From positions 877,818 to 941,817 of the forward strand of contig NZ_JALXFV010000008.1 of assembly GCF_023699475.1 (NCBI RefSeq): a DNA stretch of 64,000 bases, read 5' to 3'. Within the stretch, counting starts at the first letter, position 1, and every line of letters begins with the position of its first letter. Positions 21,921-30,677 of the stretch are shown piece after piece. The notes beneath the pieces were generated by a model. The model saw only the letters and a list, made by a program, of their open reading frames with translations, was not told the origin of the DNA and searched no databases. This DNA is from Halomarina rubra. Its GTDB lineage: Archaea; Halobacteriota; Halobacteria; Halobacteriales; Haloarculaceae. The position numbers and the translations under genes are program-made.

Positions 21921-23165
21921 ATGCAATGTCATACACGACGGAGGACACGTCGGAGGTCCCGGCGGGTCGAGTTCTTCGACGGTACGCTGAGAACTTCTGC
22001 TGAATTCGACGACGCACGGATCTTCGACACGACGCTGCGCGACGGCGAGCAGTCGCCACGCACCTCGTTCTCGTACGACGACAAGCGCGACATAGCCGCG
22101 CAACTGGACGCGATGGGCGTCCACGTCGTCGAGGCGGGGTTCCCGGTGAACTCCGACGCGGAGTTCGCCGCGGTGCGCGACATCGCCGAGAGCGCGTCGA
22201 ACGGAACGGACGTCTGCGGGTTGGCTCGTGTGGTCGAGAAGGACGTGGAGGCGGCGCTCGACGCGGGCGTCGACGTCGTCCACGTGTTCGCCTCGACCAG
22301 CGACGTCCAACTGGAGGACTCGATGCACGCCACGCGCGAGGAGGTGGTCGACCGCTCCGTGGACGCGGTACGGCGCGTCCGCGAGGCCGGTGTCGAGGTG
22401 ATGTTCTCGCCGATGGACGCCACCCGGACGGACCCGGAGTTCCTGCGCGAGGTCGTCGAGACCGTCTCCGAGGCGGGCGTCGACTGGGTGAACATCCCCG
22501 ACACCTGCGGGGTCGCCACTCCGGCGCGGTTCGCCACGCTCGTCGAGCAGTTCACCGAGTGGACGGACGCACGCATCGACGTCCACACGCACGACGACTT
22601 CGGGTTGGCGAGCGCGAACGCGCTGGCCGGCTTCGAGGCGGGCGCGGCCCAGGCGCAGGTGTCGGTCAACGGCATCGGCGAGCGCGCGGGCAACGCCGCC
22701 TTCGAGGAGGTCGTGATGGCCGTCGAGTCCATCCACGGCGTCGAGACGGGTATCGACACCACCCGCATCACCGAGTTGGCGCGGATGGTCGAGGAGAAGA
22801 GCGACGTCCCGGTGCCGGCGAACAAGCCGGTCGTCGGCGACAACGCCTTCGCCCACGAGTCGGGCATCCACGCCGCGGGCGTCATCGAGAACGCCGCGAC
22901 GTTCGAACCCGGCGTCATGACCCCCGAGATGGTCGGAGCCGAGCGCGAACTGGTGATGGGCAAACACACCGGGACGCACTCGGTGCGCGAGCGACTGCGC
23001 GAGGCGGGCTACGACCCGACCGATGAGCAGGTCCGCGCGGTCACTCGGAAGGTCAAGGACACCGGCGCGGCCAAAGAGCGCGTCACCGACGAGCGCGTCC
23101 GGGAGTTCGCCGAGACGGTCGGCGTCGAACGTACCCCCGAGCGAGTCACGGAGGGGTCGCGCTGA
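21921..23165 (+). CDS. leuA: 2-isopropylmalate synthase / (R)-citramalate synthase family enzyme
   Basis: This enzyme condenses acetyl-CoA with 2-oxoisovalerate (leucine) or pyruvate (isoleucine by the citramalate route). Which one applies cannot be settled here. The HMGL-like barrel is clear: ARIFDTTLRDGEQSPRTSFSYDDKR, DWVNIPDTCGVATP, RIDVHTHDDFGLASANALAGF, and FAHESGIHAAGV with the metal-binding HxH pair. At 414 aa it stops after the linker domain, so the C-terminal LeuA regulatory domain is absent. The N-terminus is odd. The only in-frame start before VEFFDGTL is ATG 21921, giving an Arg-rich leader, while a normal-looking leader starts at 21926 in another frame. It precedes the ilv operon. 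Confidence 0.9.
   Translation: MQCHTRRRTRRRSRRVEFFDGTLRTSAEFDDARIFDTTLRDGEQSPRTSFSYDDKRDIAAQLDAMGVHVVEAGFPVNSDAEFAAVRDIAESASNGTDVCGLARVVEKDVEAALDAGVDVVHVFASTSDVQLEDSMHATREEVVDRSVDAVRRVREAGVEVMFSPMDATRTDPEFLREVVETVSEAGVDWVNIPDTCGVATPARFATLVEQFTEWTDARIDVHTHDDFGLASANALAGFEAGAAQAQVSVNGIGERAGNAAFEEVVMAVESIHGVETGIDTTRITELARMVEEKSDVPVPANKPVVGDNAFAHESGIHAAGVIENAATFEPGVMTPEMVGAERELVMGKHTGTHSVRERLREAGYDPTDEQVRAVTRKVKDTGAAKERVTDERVREFAETVGVERTPERVTEGSR
21926..22003 (+). other. 25-codon out-of-frame overlap at the leuA 5' end
   Basis: A frame starting MSYTTEDTSEVPAGR and ending YAENFC overlaps the leuA start in a different register. Its first 14 residues look like a normal haloarchaeal N-terminus, while the leuA frame there reads MQCHTRRRTRRR. 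It may be a leader peptide, or the true LeuA N-terminus interrupted by a one-base change in the ggg at about 21961-21964. Confidence 0.45.
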
Positions 23166-23234
23166 TGGCGGCCGCCGCCGACGAACCGGAGAGGGAGCGA
23201 CGGCTCTCGCCACAGTCGCCCACTGGCGGCGAAC

Positions 23235-23251
23235 GTTGCCAGTCGGGCAAC
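23235..23251. promoter_or_regulatory. Inverted repeat abutting the ilv leader promoter
   Basis: GTTGCC agtcg GGCAAC is a perfect 6-bp inverted repeat that ends where the TATA-like box begins. A second 6-bp repeat, ACTGGC at 23222-23227 with GCCAGT at 23238-23243, overlaps it. The position over the BRE element suits a repressor or Lrp-type regulator. Confidence 0.5.
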
Positions 23252-23258
23252 TATTATC
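23251..23258 (+). promoter_or_regulatory. TATA-like box of the ilv leader transcript
   Basis: ctattatc is centred about 28 nt before ATG 23283. This is the same spacing as other leaderless promoters here, so the mRNA should begin at or within a few bases of the leader-peptide start codon. Confidence 0.65.
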
Positions 23259-23282
23259 ATCGTCCGGTCGTACGTGGTGGTA

Positions 23283-23351
23283 ATGACGCACACACGGACC
23301 CTCGCAACGGCCGTCGTGAGCGTCGCGCTCGTGATTATTGTAGGGGCGTAG
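23283..23351 (+). CDS. Candidate ilv leader peptide (22 aa)
   Basis: A 22-codon frame begins MTHTRTLATA and ends VVSVALVIIVGA. Nine of its 22 residues are Val, Ile or Leu, eight of them packed into codons 11-20. These are exactly the end products of the genes behind it. Its start lies about 28 nt from a TATA-like box, so it would be the first thing translated on a leaderless mRNA. Its last three codons and the TAG stop are part of a perfect hairpin (23340-23358), and ilvB begins 91 nt after the stop. The layout matches bacterial ilv attenuator leaders. Whether the peptide is made, and whether ribosome stalling regulates the operon, is inference. Confidence 0.6.
   Translation: MTHTRTLATAVVSVALVIIVGA
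23318..23330 (+). promoter_or_regulatory. Upstream 5-bp hairpin within the leader peptide codons
   Basis: GAGCG tcg CGCTC can form a small hairpin over the Val-Ser-Val-Ala-Leu codons of the leader frame, 9 nt before the larger hairpin. It is weak, and worth noting only as a possible alternative structure. Confidence 0.3.
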
Positions 23352-23358
23352 CCCCTAC
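23340..23358 (+). promoter_or_regulatory. Perfect 8-bp hairpin at the leader stop codon (attenuator candidate)
   Basis: GTAGGGGC gta GCCCCTAC has a perfect 8-bp stem and a 3-nt loop. The TAG stop of the leader frame spans the loop and the first base of the right arm. The following tccaccctctcctc is pyrimidine-rich but poor in T, so it is not a standard U-tract terminator. Confidence 0.6.
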
Positions 23359-23442
23359 TCCACCCTCTCCTCGACCCGTCGCCGTACCGTCTTCCGACCC
23401 AGCGACCAGCACGAACCCACAACACACGAGCGAACACAGCAG

Positions 23443-25284
23443 ATGAGCGAGCGCACGAGCACCACGACTACCCACCGGTATCGAGAACGAACGGACCCGC
23501 AGACGACCGCCGAGTCGACCACCGAGTCGGCGACGGAGTCTGCCGAGACGACTGAGACGGACGACGGGCCGACGAGCGACACACCGACGACGGGCGCACA
23601 GGCGGCCGTCGCGGCGCTCGAAGCGGCGGGCGTCGAGCACGTCTTCGGCGTGCAGGGCGGGGCCATCATGCCCGTCTACGACGCGCTGTACGACGCCGAC
23701 CCCGACCACGTCACGATGGCTCACGAGCAGGGAGCGGTTCACGCCGCCGACGCGTACGGCCAGGTGACGGGACGTCCCGGCGTCTGCATGGCGACGTCGG
23801 GGCCGGGGGCGACGAACCTCGTCACCGGCATCGCCGACGCGAACATGGATTCGGACCCGCTCGTCGCGCTGACGGGCCAGGTCCCGACGGCGTTCGTCGG
23901 GAACGACGCGTTCCAGGAGACCGACACGGTCGGCGTCACCCGCCCTATCACGAAGACGAACTTCTTCGCGGGCGACACCGACACCGTCGGTGCGACCGTC
24001 GGCGACGCCATCGCACTCGCGGGCGAGGGGCGGCCAGGACCGACGCTCGTCGACCTCCCGAAGGACGTGACGACCGGCGAGACGAGCGCGGAGCCGACCC
24101 CGACCACCGAGACCGAGGAGGAGCCACCGGCAGCCGACGCCGACGCGGTCGCACGGGCGGTCCGTGCACTCACCGACGCCGACCAGCCGCTCATCCTCTC
24201 CGGTGGCGGCGTGACCAAAGGCGAGGCCAGCGAGGAGCTACAGGCGTTCGCCACCGAGTTCGGCATCCCAGTCACGACGACGATGCCCGGCATCGGGACG
24301 TTCCCCGAGGACCACGACCTCTCGCTGTCGTGGGCCGGGATGCACGGCACCGGGTACGCGAACATGGCCATCAGCCACACCGACTGCATGCTCGCCGTGG
24401 GCACCAGATTCGACGACCGTCTCACGGGTGGCATCGAGACGTTCGCCCCCGACGCGACGGTCGTCCACGTCGACATCGACCCCGCGGAGATATCGAAGAA
24501 CGTCCACGCCGACCACCCGCTCGTCGGCGACGCCGGGACGGTCCTCGAACAGCTCCACGACGCGATGGGCGACGCCTTCGAGGAGTCGGGGCTGACCGGC
24601 GACGCCTACGACTCCTGGAGAACGACCTGTACGGACTGGAAGACGGAGTACCCGCTGACGTACGACACACCCGAGGACGAACCCCTCAAGCCGCAGTTCG
24701 TCGTCGAAGCGACGGACGAGTTGACCCCCGACGACACGCTCGTGACGACGGGCGTCGGCCAGCACCAGATGTGGGCCGCGCAGTTCTGGACGTACACCGA
24801 ACCACGGACCTACATCTCCTCGCACGGGCTGGGGACGATGGGCTACGGCCTGCCCGCCGCCATCGGCGCGAAGGTGGCCGCCCCGGACCGCGAGGTGGTC
24901 TGTTTCGACGGCGACGGAAGCTTCCTGATGACGATGCAGGAACTCGCCGTCGCGGTCCGGGAGAACCTCGACGTCACGGTCGTCGTGCTCAACAACGAGG
25001 CCATCGGGATGGTCCGTCAGTGGCAGGACGCCTTCTTCGAGGGTCGCCGCATGGCCTCGGAGTACGGCTGGGTGCCCGACTTCGCGGCGCTCGCCGAGGC
25101 GTTCGGCGCGAAGGGGTTCACCCTGCGCGAGTACGACGAGACCGCCGAGACTCTCCGCGAAGCCATCGACTACGACGGCCCGAGCGTCGTCGACGCCCAC
25201 ATCGACCCGACCGAGAACGTCTACCCGATGGTCCCCAGCGGCGGCGACAACTGCCAGTTCGCGCTCTCGGAGGACCAGCTATGA
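23443..25284 (+). CDS. ilvB: Acetolactate synthase, catalytic subunit
   Basis: IlvB is the thiamine-diphosphate enzyme that joins two pyruvates, or pyruvate and 2-oxobutyrate, to start valine/leucine and isoleucine synthesis. The 613-aa protein has a Ser/Thr/Glu-rich N-terminal extension of about 45 residues, then the three ThDP-enzyme domains. The first starts at VEHVFGVQGGAIMPVYDALY with the catalytic Glu in MAHEQGAVH; the middle FAD/DHS-like domain follows; the C-terminal ThDP-binding motif is CFDGDGSFLMTMQELAVAV...VVLNN. It overlaps ilvN by 4 nt (ATGA). Expression is probably set by the leader region in front of it. Confidence 0.95.
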   Translation: MSERTSTTTTHRYRERTDPQTTAESTTESATESAETTETDDGPTSDTPTTGAQAAVAALEAAGVEHVFGVQGGAIMPVYDALYDADPDHVTMAHEQGAVHAADAYGQVTGRPGVCMATSGPGATNLVTGIADANMDSDPLVALTGQVPTAFVGNDAFQETDTVGVTRPITKTNFFAGDTDTVGATVGDAIALAGEGRPGPTLVDLPKDVTTGETSAEPTPTTETEEEPPAADADAVARAVRALTDADQPLILSGGGVTKGEASEELQAFATEFGIPVTTTMPGIGTFPEDHDLSLSWAGMHGTGYANMAISHTDCMLAVGTRFDDRLTGGIETFAPDATVVHVDIDPAEISKNVHADHPLVGDAGTVLEQLHDAMGDAFEESGLTGDAYDSWRTTCTDWKTEYPLTYDTPEDEPLKPQFVVEATDELTPDDTLVTTGVGQHQMWAAQFWTYTEPRTYISSHGLGTMGYGLPAAIGAKVAAPDREVVCFDGDGSFLMTMQELAVAVRENLDVTVVVLNNEAIGMVRQWQDAFFEGRRMASEYGWVPDFAALAEAFGAKGFTLREYDETAETLREAIDYDGPSVVDAHIDPTENVYPMVPSGGDNCQFALSEDQL

Positions 25285-26162
25285 GCGGCCAGTCCGAGCA
25301 GTCCGAGCACTCGGAGGCCCCCGAGCGGCGGACGACGACCCCCTCGTCGACCGGGCAGCACCCCGAAGCACGCGACCGCCCGAACGGGCGACGCTCCTCG
25401 CAGGGTATCCGCGTCGACCCGCACGCCGAGGCGACCCACGAACCGCGCCGGACGACCATCTCGGCGCTCGTTCGGCACGAACCGGGCGTCCTCGCGGAGG
25501 TGTCCGGGCTCGTGAGTCGCCGACAGTTCAACATCGAGTCGCTGACCGTCGGGTCGACGACGAACCCCGAGACGGCACGCATCACGCTCGTCATCGAGGA
25601 GCCCGAACCGGGCGTCCGACAGGTCGAGCGCCAGTTGGCGAAACTGCGCCCGGTCATCTCGGTCGGTGAGTTGGACGGCGACGCGGTGCGCCGTGAACTG
25701 GTCGTCCTGAAGGTCCACGGCGACCGGCCGGGCGACGTGCAGGCCGTCACCGAGATGTACGACGGCACCACCCTCGACGCCGGTCCCCGGACCATCACCG
25801 TCGAGATAACGGGCGACGAGCAGACCATCGACGACGCCATCGACGCGTTCCGGCAGTTCGGCATCCGCGAACTCGCCCGCACCGGCCACACCGCGCTGGC
25901 TCGCGGCGAGACGTGGACGACGCCGGACGAACAGGAGCGCTACGAGGAGTTGCGCGGTTCGGAGCGAGCGCCAGCGAGTGAGAACCGCGCGAATGCGAAC
26001 GGGGAGCGAAAGCGACCCGTGAGCGAAGACGGCGACACTGGCTCGAAAGAGCGACTCGCGACGGACGGCGGCGAGAACGATGCTCTCGCTACTCGGCCGG
26101 ACGAGTCCGGCGACGGTGGCGAGGACGCCGACACGACGACCGACCACCGCAGATACCTGTAG
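25281..26162 (+). CDS. ilvN: Acetolactate synthase, regulatory subunit, with long C-terminal tail
   Basis: IlvN binds IlvB and confers feedback control by valine. The ACT domain is seen at about residues 53-125 ([36 protein letters not shown]) and the C-terminal subunit domain at about 130-215 ([40 protein letters not shown]). The usual subunit is about 160-220 aa, whereas this one is 293 aa. The excess is a disordered N-terminus of about 50 residues and a 70-residue hydrophilic tail after YEELR, in which a dispersed repeat (25956-25986) is read in frame. It is coupled to ilvB and is followed after 4 nt by ilvC. Confidence 0.93.
25956..25986 (+). repeat. 31-nt dispersed imperfect palindrome, copy 2, inside ilvN
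   Basis: The segment from ggttcggagcgagcg to cgagtgagaacc is the inverted copy of 5374-5404 (28 of 31 positions identical). It codes in frame for [10 protein letters not shown] within the ilvN tail, so it appears to have been inserted without breaking the gene. Confidence 0.7.
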
Positions 26163-26166
26163 ACCC

Positions 26167-27201
26167 ATGACTGACAACCAGATCTACTACGACGACGACG
26201 CATCGTACGAAGACATCGAGGAGAAGACCGTGGCCGTCCTCGGCTACGGGAGCCAGGGCCACGCCCACGCGCTCAACCTCGCGGACAGCGCCATCGACGT
26301 GGTCGTGGGCCTGCGCGAGGGCTCCTCGTCACGCGCGGCGGCCCGCGACGACGGCCTCCGGGTGGCGACGCCCACGGAGGCGGCCGCGGAAGCCGACCTC
26401 GTGGCGATGCTCGTCCCCGACACCGTCCAGCCGGACGTGTTCGACGCCATCGAACCGCACCTCGACGCCGGCGACACGCTGCTGTTCGCTCACGGGTTCA
26501 ACGTCCACTACGGGCAGATAGAGCCACCGGAGGACGTCGACGTGTCGATGATAGCGCCCAAATCGCCGGGCCACCTCGTGCGCCGGAACTTCGAGGCCGG
26601 CGAGGGCACGCCAGGGTTGCTCGCCATCTACCGCGACGCGACCGGCGACGCCCGCGACGAGGCGCTCGCGTACGCCCAGGCCATCGGCTGCACCCGCGCC
26701 GGGGTGGTCGAGACGACGTTCCGCGAGGAGACCGAGACCGACCTGTTCGGCGAGCAGGCCGTGCTCTGCGGTGGCGTCACCGAACTCGTCAAGGCGGGCT
26801 ACGAGACGCTCGTCGACGCGGGGTACAGCCGCGAGATGGCGTACTTCGAGTGTATGAACGAGCTGAAACTCATCGTCGACCTGCTGTACGAGGGCGGTCT
26901 CGGCGAGATGTGGGACTCGGTGAGCGACACCGCCGAGTACGGCGGGCTCACCCGCGGCGAGGTGGTGGTCGACGACCACGCCCGCGACCGGATGGAGACC
27001 GTTCTGGAGGAGGTTCAGAACGGCGAGTTCGCCCGCGAGTGGATCACCGAGAACCAGGCCGGTCGACCCGCCTACACGCAGCGCCGGAAGGCCGAGCAGG
27101 CCCACGACATCGAGGACGTGGGCGCGGAGCTCCGCGCGCTGTTCGCGTGGGGCGGCGAGGAACGGGACGCGGAGACGCCGAAAGCACCAGCGGACGACTG
27201 A
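26167..27201 (+). CDS. ilvC: Ketol-acid reductoisomerase
   Basis: IlvC isomerises and reduces acetolactate and acetohydroxybutyrate to the dihydroxy acids. The 344-aa class I enzyme has the Rossmann motif [19 protein letters not shown], the loop [12 protein letters not shown] that contacts the cofactor phosphate, [10 protein letters not shown] and [13 protein letters not shown]. The C-terminal knotted domain has the metal-binding [13 protein letters not shown] and [17 protein letters not shown]. The Ser-rich loop suggests NADPH, which is inference. The last 15 residues are an acidic tail. It starts 4 nt after ilvN and is followed 9 nt later by the small unknown gene. Confidence 0.95.
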
Positions 27202-27210
27202 CCAGAGACG

Positions 27211-27558
27211 ATGACCCAGACGACACGCGACGACCGATCGGACCGACGCACCGACCGACGAGCAACCGACCGACGCACCGGCGAGCGAGCGAGCCTCGCC
27301 GACGTCGACCACACACATCCCCGGACCGGCGAGAGCTTCGGCGACGCGATGGTGTACCACCGCGGTCCGACCGTCGCCGCCGACGGTGGGACCGAGCGCT
27401 CCGGCGAGACCCGGACCGAGGACGACGAGACCCTCGCGGACCTCGACCACACGCCGCCGCGAGACGCCGACGACGCCAACACGGTCCACGAACGCGGCGG
27501 CGAACACGAGGCGGAGACCGACCGAGCGACAGAGAGCGACGAGCACGAATCCGTATGA
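27211..27558 (+). CDS. Small acidic repeat protein in the ilv-leu operon (115 aa)
   Basis: I do not recognise a family with a known function. The protein has an Arg/Asp-rich start followed by two related units: SLADVDHTHPRTGESFGDAM ending VYHRGPTVA, and TLADLDHTPPRDADDANTV ending HERGGEH. The shared pattern is LADxDHTxPR, then after a spacer V(Y)HxRG. The rest is likely disordered. It sits 9 nt behind ilvC and 28 nt before leuC on the same strand, so it is an operon member. From memory, a small hypothetical gene occurs at this place in other Halobacteria. The His-Thr and Arg-Gly pattern suggests a binding role, but this is only inference. Confidence 0.65.
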   Translation: MTQTTRDDRSDRRTDRRATDRRTGERASLADVDHTHPRTGESFGDAMVYHRGPTVAADGGTERSGETRTEDDETLADLDHTPPRDADDANTVHERGGEHEAETDRATESDEHESV

Positions 27559-27586
27559 CGAGCACGACGACGGGAGACGAACGTCC

Positions 27587-29038
27587 ATGAGCGAGAACAC
27601 GCTGTACGACGACGTGTGGGACCGCCACCGCGTCCGGACCCTGCCCTCCGGGCAGGACCAGCTGTTCGTCGGGCTCCACCTCGTCCACGAGGTGACCAGC
27701 CCCCAGGCGTTCGGGATGCTGGAGGAGCGCGACCGCGAGGTCGCCCGGCCCGACCTGACCCACGCGACGGCCGACCACATCGTCCCGACCGACGACCGCT
27801 CGCGGCCCTACGGCGACGCCGCCGCCGAGTCGATGCTGAGCGAGTTGGAGGCGAACGTCGGCGACTCCGACATCGCGTTCGACCACCCCGACACCGGTCG
27901 GCAGGGTATCGTCCACGTGGTCGGTCCCGAACAGGGCCGCACCCAGCCGGGGATGACCGTCGTCTGCGGGGACTCACACACCGCCACCCACGGCGCGTTC
28001 GGCGCGCTCGCGTTCGGCATCGGCACCTCCCAGATTCGAGACGTGCTCGCGACTCAGACCGTCGCGATGGAGAAGAAGCGGGTCCGACGCGTCGAAGTCA
28101 CGGGCGAACTCGACGACGGCGTCACCGCCAAGGACGTGATTCTGACCGTCATTCGCGAACTCGGCACCGACGGCGGCGTCGGCTACGTCTACGAGTACGG
28201 CGGCCCCGTCGTCGAAGCGATGGACATGGCCGGGCGGATGACCGTCTGTAACATGTCCATCGAGGGCGGTGCCCGTGCGGGCTACGTCGAACCCGACGAG
28301 ACGACCTACGAGTGGCTCCGCGAGACCGACGCGTTCGCCGAGGACCCGGAACGGTTCGCCGAGTTGCGCGAGTACTGGGAGTCCATCCGCTCGGGGCCGG
28401 ACGCCGAGTACGACGACGTCGTCACCATCGACGGCGACGCCATCGAACCGGTCGTGACGTGGGGGACCACCCCCGGCCAGGTCGTCGGCGTCACCGAACC
28501 GGTCCCCGACCCCGACTCGTTCGAGGAGGGCGAGCGCGAGGTCGCCCGTCGGGCACAGGACCACACGGGCGTGACGCCGGGCGAGTCCATGCAGGGCTAC
28601 CCCGTCGACGTGGCGTTCGTCGGGTCGTGTACGAACGCGCGACTCTCGGACCTGCGGGACGCCGCGCGCGTCGTCCGTGGGCGCGAGATTCACGACGACG
28701 TCCGCGGACTGGTCGTCCCCGGCAGTCAGCGCGTCGCCGCGGCCGCCGAGCGGGAGGGCCTCGATACGGTCTTCCGCGACGCCGGCTTCCAGTGGCGTGC
28801 TCCCGGCTGTTCGATGTGTCTGGGGATGAACGACGACCAACTCGTCGGCGACGAGGTGTGTGCCTCTTCCTCGAACCGGAACTTCGTCGGCCGGCAGGGG
28901 TCGAAGGAGGGCCGCACGCTCCTGATGAGTCCACGGATGGTCGCCGCCGCCGCCGTCACGGGCGGAGTGACCGACGTGCGCGAGATGTCGCTGGTCGAAG
29001 CGGACGACGCCGAGGAGACCGCGGAGGTGACTCGATGA
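27587..29038 (+). CDS. leuC: 3-isopropylmalate dehydratase, large subunit
   Basis: LeuC with LeuD isomerises 2-isopropylmalate to 3-isopropylmalate using a 4Fe-4S cluster, and the same pair can act on citramalate. The 483-aa protein is an aconitase-family large subunit: LYDDVWDRHRV, VCGDSHTATHGAFGALAFGIGTSQ, VAFVGSCTNARLSDL with the first cluster cysteine, and APGCSMCLGMNDDQL with the other two. The motif CASSSNRNFVGRQG follows as usual. Start ATG 27587 (MSENTLYDD) fits the family; longer readings upstream overlap the repeat protein in another frame. Its stop overlaps leuD (ATGA). Confidence 0.95.
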   Translation: MSENTLYDDVWDRHRVRTLPSGQDQLFVGLHLVHEVTSPQAFGMLEERDREVARPDLTHATADHIVPTDDRSRPYGDAAAESMLSELEANVGDSDIAFDHPDTGRQGIVHVVGPEQGRTQPGMTVVCGDSHTATHGAFGALAFGIGTSQIRDVLATQTVAMEKKRVRRVEVTGELDDGVTAKDVILTVIRELGTDGGVGYVYEYGGPVVEAMDMAGRMTVCNMSIEGGARAGYVEPDETTYEWLRETDAFAEDPERFAELREYWESIRSGPDAEYDDVVTIDGDAIEPVVTWGTTPGQVVGVTEPVPDPDSFEEGEREVARRAQDHTGVTPGESMQGYPVDVAFVGSCTNARLSDLRDAARVVRGREIHDDVRGLVVPGSQRVAAAAEREGLDTVFRDAGFQWRAPGCSMCLGMNDDQLVGDEVCASSSNRNFVGRQGSKEGRTLLMSPRMVAAAAVTGGVTDVREMSLVEADDAEETAEVTR

Positions 29039-29697
29039 GCGACGCGAACGACGGCGGTCCGAGCACGCCCGACACGCCCGCCGTCGAACGCGTCGAGGGG
29101 CCTGGCATCGCCGTCCGTGGGGACGACGTCGACACCGACCAGATTCTCCCCGCACGGTTCCTGAAGGTGCTCACCTTCGAGGGACTGGGCGAGTTCGCGT
29201 TCTTCGACCAGCGCTTCGAGGAGGTCGAGACCGACGGCACGGTCGAGGAACGCGAGACCGACCACCCGTTCAACGACCCCGCCCACCGTGACGCGTCGGT
29301 ACTCGTCGTCGGCAGCAACTTCGGCTGTGGCTCCTCACGGGAGCACGCTCCGCAGGCGCTCCAGCGGTGGGGTATCGACGCCGTCGTCGGCGAGTCGTTC
29401 GCCGAGATTTTCGCGGGCAACTGTCTCGCGCTCGGCGTCCCGACGGTGACGCTCGACGGCGACGCGGTCGAGGCGCTCCAGTCGTTCGTCGAGGCCGATC
29501 CGGACGCCGACGTCGTGGTCGACGTGGGCGAAGAGACGGTCAGCTACGACGGTCGAACGGTCGACGCGACCGTCGACGACGCCCACCAGCACGCGCTCAC
29601 CGAGGGACAGTGGGACACGACCGCACAACTGGCGGCCGTCCCCGAACGGATAACCGAAACCGCGAACGACCTGCCGTACGTCGAGTCCACACGATGA
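29035..29697 (+). CDS. leuD: 3-isopropylmalate dehydratase, small subunit
   Basis: LeuD is the swivel-domain partner of LeuC that closes the substrate site. The 220-aa protein contains the family blocks [42 protein letters not shown] and [20 protein letters not shown] short acidic, Pro-rich extension precedes them. It is translationally coupled to both neighbours by ATGA overlaps (start 29035 within the leuC stop, stop within the leuB start), which supports one polycistronic message with balanced synthesis. Confidence 0.95.
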
Positions 29698-30677
29698 GCG
29701 ACGACGTCGAAATCGCCGTCGTCCCCGGTGACGGCATCGGTCGGGAGGTGACCCCCGCCACCGTCCGGGTGCTCGACGCACTCGACGCCCCGCTCTCGTT
29801 CAGCGAGTACGAGGCCGGCGACGCGGTGGCCGACGAGCGCGGGACGCCGCTCCCCGAGGAGACCGTCGAGGGCGTCGACGCGGCCGACGCGACGCTGTTC
29901 GGCGCGGCCGGTGAGACCGCGGCGGACGTCATCCTGCCGTTGCGCGAGGCGGTCGGGAGCTTCGCCAACGTCCGGCCCGTCAAGGCCTACCCCGGCGTCG
30001 ACGCGCTCCAACCGGAGACGGACCTCGTGTTCGTCCGGGAGAACACCGAGGGCGTCTACGCCGGCATCGAGAGCGAACTCGCGCCGGGCGTGACGACCTG
30101 TACCCGCGTCGTCACCGACGACGCGTCGCGGCGAGTCGCCGAGTTCGCGTTCGACTACGCCGCCGAGCGCGACGCGCGGGTGACAGTCGCGCACAAGGCG
30201 AACGTGATGCGCGTCACGGACGGGCAGTTCCTCGACTCCGTCCGAGCCGTGGCGGACGACCGCGGTGCGGCCCACGACGAGGCGCTGATGGACGCGCTGG
30301 CGATGCACCTCGTCCAGCGCCCGGCCGACTACGACGTGGTGTGCTGCCCGAACCTCGCTGGCGATATGTTGAGCGACCTCGCCGCCGGTCTCGTCGGCGG
30401 CCTCGGTCTCCTCCCGAGCGCGAACGTCGGCGGCGCGAACGCGCTGTTCGAACCGGTCCACGGCACCGCACCCGACATCGCCGGCGAGGGCGTCGCCAAC
30501 CCCGCCGCGACGATGCTCTCGGCGGCGCTCATGCTGGAGTGGCTCGGTGAGACCGACGCGGGCGAGCGAGTCCGCACGGCGGTCGAGTCGGTGCTGGCCG
30601 ACGGGCCGCGGACACCGGACCTGGGGGGCGAGGCGACGACGGCGGACGTAACCGCGGCGGTCCTCGAGCGTCTCTGA
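29694..30677 (+). CDS. leuB: 3-isopropylmalate dehydrogenase
   Basis: LeuB oxidatively decarboxylates 3-isopropylmalate to 2-oxoisocaproate, or methylmalate on the isoleucine route. The 327-aa protein has the isocitrate/isopropylmalate dehydrogenase pattern: [47 protein letters not shown] with the active-site Lys, [19 protein letters not shown] with the metal-binding Asp residues, and [19 protein letters not shown] for nucleotide binding. It is coupled to leuD and is the last recognised gene of the operon; the next gene is on the other strand. Confidence 0.95.

Follow-up and report, generated by a model that had tools for sequence, protein, structure and literature searches.

A textbook mechanism of bacteria, ribosome-mediated attenuation requires tight coupling of translation to transcription. 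Leader-peptide attenuators precede the ilv operons of enteric bacteria, and in the bacterial pheST and trp attenuators a run of Phe or Trp codons lies in a leader peptide ahead of synthetase or biosynthetic genes. Leaderless attenuators that use cysteine codons were reportedly described in mycobacteria by Canestrari et al. in 2020 (as cited in PMC9094748). For bacterial ilvB genes, several attenuators based on an upstream open reading frame (uORF) are known, including the Corynebacterium ilvB-II motif (PMC10272879), and a three-hairpin attenuation model exists for ilvBNC of C. glutamicum (PMC11857589). Among Archaea, dRNA-seq of Haloferax volcanii placed uORFs of 15–31 aa downstream of mapped transcription starts, among them, in long 5'-UTRs, a frame of 26 aa ahead of pheS and one of 23 aa ahead of trpS; the paper does not name attenuation or leader peptides and does not list ilvB (PMC4983044). 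No report of archaeal leader-peptide attenuation was found in the open literature, most subscription papers lying outside the scope of the search, which agrees with the remark in an earlier note on this DNA that no such archaeal system was known.

The DNA analysed here (hereafter the window) is a stretch of 64,000 nt from Halomarina rubra. Judging from comparative sequence, a short ORF and a hairpin upstream of ilvB probably form a ribosome-mediated attenuator of the ilvBNC-leuCDB operon, which would sense charged tRNA-Ile/Val and act through transcription termination. The earlier note had raised a leader-peptide attenuator as a candidate, and the idea is supported by both the comparison of relatives and the Phe and Trp counterparts at pheS and trpS. 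As in bacterial ilv attenuators, a short uORF rich in branched-chain codons, with start and stop in frame, and an RNA hairpin stand before ilvB, in the same pathway. Unlike them, the haloarchaeal leader has an archaeal promoter, an apparently leaderless uORF and a stop codon inside a single short hairpin, and neither a U-run terminator nor an antiterminator nor an Rfam match was found for it. With the mycobacterial cysteine attenuators it would share a leaderless short ORF at the 5' end and a run of cognate codons predicted to control the downstream genes; that system is bacterial and concerns cysteine, and no relationship by descent is suggested. With the H. volcanii uORFs it shares a short frame downstream of a transcription start, here a predicted one. 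The arrangement looks like a ribosome-driven amino-acid sensor of the kind known from bacteria, apparently undescribed in Archaea.

The ilvB leader and its predicted promoter in the window

Matches to NCBIfam bore out the gene names ilvBNC-leuCDB given earlier, in the order leuA, ilvB, ilvN, ilvC, leuC, leuD, leuB, with ilvD divergent and upstream of leuA (Table 1). The leader frame was likewise confirmed as 22 codons with nine Val, Ile or Leu residues, running from ATG 23283 to TAG 23349–23351 and ending in ...ALVIIVGA-stop within the hairpin. The coordinates first given for the hairpin of 8 bp around this TAG were exact, and folded alone it reaches −14.7 kcal/mol. A short gap to ilvB had also been pointed out; it stands, with the distance from the hairpin end to ATG 23443 recomputed as 84 nt instead of 85 nt. 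The leader from 23283 to 23442 folds more stably than its dinucleotide shuffles (z −3.1). In shuffles of the 277-nt intergenic region, the chance of an ATG-initiated frame of 15–40 codons with at least 41% I/L/V is 0.01%, and that of a frame whose final 12 residues include 8 or more I/L/V is 0.005%. The uORF–hairpin arrangement in the window is real and lies far above chance expectation.

Table 1. Positions of the leader elements and operon genes in the window.
Feature	Position	Strand	Basis
leuA, upstream of ilvB	ends 23165		NCBIfam
Inverted repeat GTTGCC-N5-GGCAAC, possible regulator site	23235..23251	.	sequence; TTGCC half-site counts
TATA-like box TATTAT	23252..23257	+	A+T peak and spacing across leaders
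Leader ORF uORF1, MTHTRTLATAVVSVALVIIVGA-stop, 22 codons	23283..23351	+	ATG-open frame in 155/159 leaders
Proposed control codons ATT ATT GTA (Ile-Ile-Val), rare	23334..23342	+	codon counts, leaders vs ilvB genes
Hairpin GTAGGGGC-GTA-GCCCCTAC	23340..23358	+	sequence; TAG in loop and 3' arm
G-less pyrimidine-rich tract, proposed termination or factor-binding site	23359..23372	+	base composition, 159 leaders
GTACCG, instance of the conserved CGYAYCG motif	23384..23389	+	motif counts, 159 leaders
ilvB, acetolactate synthase large subunit, first gene under the proposed control	23443..25284	+	TIGR00118 over cut-off
ilvN, ilvC, leuC, leuD, leuB, remainder of operon	25281..30677	+	NCBIfam matches

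A TATA-like box had been described at 23251–23258, 28 nt before the ATG. The box is present, and both values were refined: its core is the TATTAT of Table 1, and the first base lies 31 nt upstream of ATG 23283. In 112 leaders where just one ATG qualifies as the start, A+T content peaks at 0.79–0.95 exactly at −32 to −27 from the uORF ATG, with an A-rich pair at −37/−36, and the spacing from box to ATG is 31–33 nt in 118 of the 138 leaders that have a recognisable box. Since archaeal TATA boxes lie about 26 nt upstream of the transcription start site, the mRNA would start at or a few bases from the uORF ATG. In the window this implies a transcript that would be leaderless or nearly so, beginning at the uORF1 ATG, and the position of the box is compatible with the leaderless mRNA proposed in the earlier note. 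The inverted repeat that was said to abut the box was found in that place. As a full repeat it is not generally conserved among 155 leaders; only the half-site TTGCC recurs (27/155, against 1/155 in a control interval).

Conservation of the frame and of its codons

We picked ilvB loci by protein similarity, blind to the element (80 from GTDB genomes and 30 from relatives), and it was found upstream of ilvB, as ATYGTAGGGS followed by a C-rich 3' arm, in 108 of the 110 usable loci. Both exceptions are diverged: one ends in ...GIIGIIGIIGAPQ-stop with a stem GGGGC...GCCCC, and the other has a stem GTACGGGCC/GGCCC where a frame lacking an ATG ends. At the level of genomes, 283 out of 292 from Halobacteria, each with a completeness of 90% or more, contain the pattern, mostly as a single copy. 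Where both coordinates are available, the match lies a few hundred bases upstream of ilvB in all genomes except one (G013), whose ilvB has a CTC-GTA variant. Several of the nine genomes without the pattern hold variants (GTA-GTA-GGG, CGT-ACG-GGC stems or a longer loop). The leader element is absent at ilvB in genus g76 (L117, L120) and in two deep lineages (L123, L124), and at the latter two loci other coding sequence seems to reach almost to ilvB. Elsewhere in the phylum, outside Halobacteria, matches to the pattern look random and lack an in-frame stop. To the extent that the pattern identifies it, the element is kept near class-wide in Halobacteria. In the alignment of ilvB upstream regions that the earlier note had proposed, the frame, the stop within the hairpin and the branched-chain codons are kept while the amino acids drift.

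Single additional matches were also seen. A further ATTGTAGGGGC, on contig C13 of the genome from which the window comes, was rejected, as it lies in another sequence context and has no 3' arm. One genome (G159, C2:397923; L319/L374) carries a second leader copy (MRQLDTDSHTAPASGGAVGARLIVGV-stop) at a site other than ilvB; it is followed by a short ORF bearing a VDHTPP motif, behind which no large leuC-like ORF lies. The motif resembles that of a predicted small ORF (115 aa) between ilvC and leuC in the window (27211–27558), which has repeats of (A/L)D(V/L)DHT(H/P)P.

Frame and codon statistics were pooled over 159 distinct leaders. Because most of these were collected by means of a motif in which Ile-Val-Gly is fixed, the near-invariance of I, V and G (Ile at the last position in 155/159, Val in 159/159) is partly built in, and the unbiased figure is the 108/110 given above. 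The frame of GTA-GGG is open upstream to an ATG in 155 of 159 leaders, against 1 and 12 for the other two frames. An in-frame stop follows the Ile codon in 159/159, by 12 nt (62 leaders), 15 nt (91) or 27 nt (6) and never elsewhere, and it stays in frame although loop lengths in the best stem run from 3 to 14 nt. Near-invariant arm nucleotides in the form of an inverted repeat are also what a protein-binding site in DNA or RNA would present, with the overlying frame incidental. A dimer operator would not be expected to vary its loop in this way, and a DNA operator is set aside for this reason; the frame counts further argue against an incidental frame, and we consider a protein-binding palindrome highly improbable.

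Still less probable is a functional microprotein cotranscribed with ilvB. In its favour, the ORF is conserved and extends for 14–36 codons before the hairpin, but the body of the peptide drifts, with little bias among codon positions (0.126, 0.114 and 0.146 differences per position), and conservation is limited to the residues that overlap the hairpin. The constraint therefore acts on the frame and the tail and not on a protein. Indel lengths are multiples of three in 32% of cases in the uORF vs 23% downstream, a weak difference drawn from gappy alignments.

Codon choice at the end of the frame departs strongly from that of the genes. The Val codon is GTA in 159/159 leaders, against 19 of 3519 Val codons (0.5%) in 80 ilvB genes, and it is retained even in leaders whose arm is unpaired at those bases. 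The last Ile codon is ATT in 116/155 (75%), compared with 112 of 1789 Ile codons (6%) in ilvB genes. Further upstream, I/L/V account for 56% of residues at position −3 and 51% at −5; Leu is a product of the operon, yet it has no fixed codon in the leaders, a point against the attenuator reading. Rare cognate codons would be the expected choice of a sensitive attenuator, and the fixed codon choice possibly reflects a signal at the nucleotide level.

The nearly invariant end residues I, V and G are also in line with nascent-chain arrest, in which a C-terminal IVG(A/V/P) would stall the ribosome via the exit tunnel, perhaps together with a metabolite, with the hairpin responding. This we judge very unlikely: the residues between IVG and the stop differ in number (1, 2 or 6), the codons themselves (GTA, GGG and ATT) are fixed or favoured beyond what the residues alone would demand, the loci pheS and trpS carry Phe and Trp cognate versions, and the diverged lineage has GIIGIIGIIGAPQ in place of the IVG end. 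Given the variable distance between the Ile codon and the stop, arrest at the stop codon is excluded, though not all forms of arrest during elongation are.

Hairpin, downstream sequence and predicted mode of control

The 34-nt hairpin regions of a third of the 159 leaders have a median z of −2.9 against dinucleotide shuffles. Shuffling the 3' arms among sequences leaves the stem length of the ilvB hairpin alike (6.92 vs 6.88), and this covariation test has no power because the arms are nearly invariant; the pairing consequently rests on complementarity and a few GTAGGGCC/GGCCCTAC variants. Beyond GGG/CCC, RNAalifold shows no second conserved (antiterminator) structure at ilvB, and an Rfam scan of 23150–23500 (T-box, ilvB motifs and others) gave nothing above threshold, the best two matches being far below their gathering scores.

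For about 20 nt past the hairpin the sequence is G-poor, with C+T at 0.78–0.94 and G at ≤0.09 at +14 to +20 from the CCC of the 3' arm (159 leaders), and a pyrimidine tract is conserved 12–20 nt past the start of that arm. No bacterial-type intrinsic terminator (stem plus U-run) was found, a C/U tract occupying its place, and the earlier description of this tail as not a classical terminator holds. The missing U-run counts against membership in the bacterial type and not against function, because archaeal termination rules differ. Some 32 nt past the 3' arm, CGYAYCG occurs in 115/159 leaders, against 41 and 18 in control intervals; this motif falls outside what the attenuation model explains.

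In haloarchaea, coupling between transcription and translation has been reported (PMC8576121). From the arrangement of frame, codons, hairpin and tract we infer that the ribosome stalls, that it thereby senses charged tRNA, in which direction control runs and that termination is the output, as follows. The leaderless mRNA would start at or just before ATG 23283, and a ribosome would translate it from its first bases while trailing RNA polymerase at a short distance. Under a shortage of charged tRNA-Ile or tRNA-Val, this ribosome would stall at ATT-ATT-GTA, codons that immediately precede the 5' hairpin arm and extend into it; once the last Ile codon or the Val codon occupied the A site, the ribosome would mask that arm, the hairpin would not form and the polymerase would continue into ilvB. 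With ample amino acids, the ribosome would get to the stop within the hairpin and depart, and the hairpin could form. The formed hairpin, together with the pyrimidine tract 12–20 nt on, would then release the polymerase, possibly with archaeal FttA/aCPSF1. The timing of release would matter, since a terminating ribosome also covers the hairpin.

The main rival to this termination model retains the sensing of charged tRNA by stalling and moves the output to translation or mRNA stability, through access to ilvB or reinitiation, in many species by way of a second short ORF whose end overlaps the start of ilvB. The stop of the second ORF overlaps the ilvB ATG as ATGA in 96/122 loci, which partly follows from ilvB beginning with ATGAG. 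Control of translation would also be in keeping with the lack of a detectable U-run terminator and with the gap of 84 nt between hairpin and ilvB in the window. The second ORF is, however, missing in the window's genus, though uORF1 and the hairpin persist there, and the pyrimidine tract is conserved near the hairpin and not near ilvB. On these grounds we regard a translational output as rather unlikely and favour termination.

The second short ORF often contains RYR (e.g. L006, L060, L099). The N-terminus of ilvB in the window contains THRYRER, as if the second short ORF had fused to ilvB.

Cognate leaders before pheS and trpS

In most haloarchaeal genomes looked at (L126–L155), pheS is preceded by a leader ORF of about 25 codons that ends in GFGFFF(A), for example GFGFFFAA-stop in L131. 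Its conserved stem pairs codons 4–6 with the GFG codons, and some compensatory changes occur in this stem (CCGAACCCC/GGGGUUCGG). The trpS leader ORF of relatives (L157–L185, L286, L287, L373) holds WRW or WRWH in or beside a stem, the arms of which covary: 17 cells changed on both sides, and the score of 0.271 compares with 0.119 after shuffling, with 0/500 shuffles as high. The trpS uORFs of Haloferax mediterranei and H. larsenii are 23 aa long and contain CWRW, the same length as that reported in H. volcanii. Upstream regions of leuA, trpE/trpD, hisS, leuS and ileS showed no comparable leader ORF (for leuS, the comparison covered only the seven full-length loci that extend to the start).

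The runs of Phe or Trp codons in these leaders resemble those of the bacterial pheST and trp attenuators; the haloarchaeal leaders differ in the domain of life, in their RNA structures and, for Trp, in standing before trpS and not before the trp genes. Apart from codon-specific ribosome stalling, little would readily account for cognate residues at three unrelated loci. It seems fairly likely from these comparisons that Halobacteria possess a general form of leader-peptide attenuation, covering at least Ile/Val at ilvB, Phe at pheS and Trp at trpS, which would combine leaderless uORFs with archaeal termination, would have arisen independently of the bacterial systems and would be the first ribosome-mediated attenuation described in Archaea. 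If true, attenuation has also evolved with an archaeal polymerase, archaeal termination and leaderless mRNAs, for three amino-acid groups, and the uORFs already mapped upstream of H. volcanii pheS and trpS may have a role of this kind.

Two further features of trpS leaders were noted. Downstream of the first stem, a CUC..UUUCUC tract and a candidate second stem follow. In plasmid-borne copies of trpS (L370, L371, L372), the stem is kept but the leader frame has been cut down to VSTSRETDERRWR or VSTSPETDERLWR.
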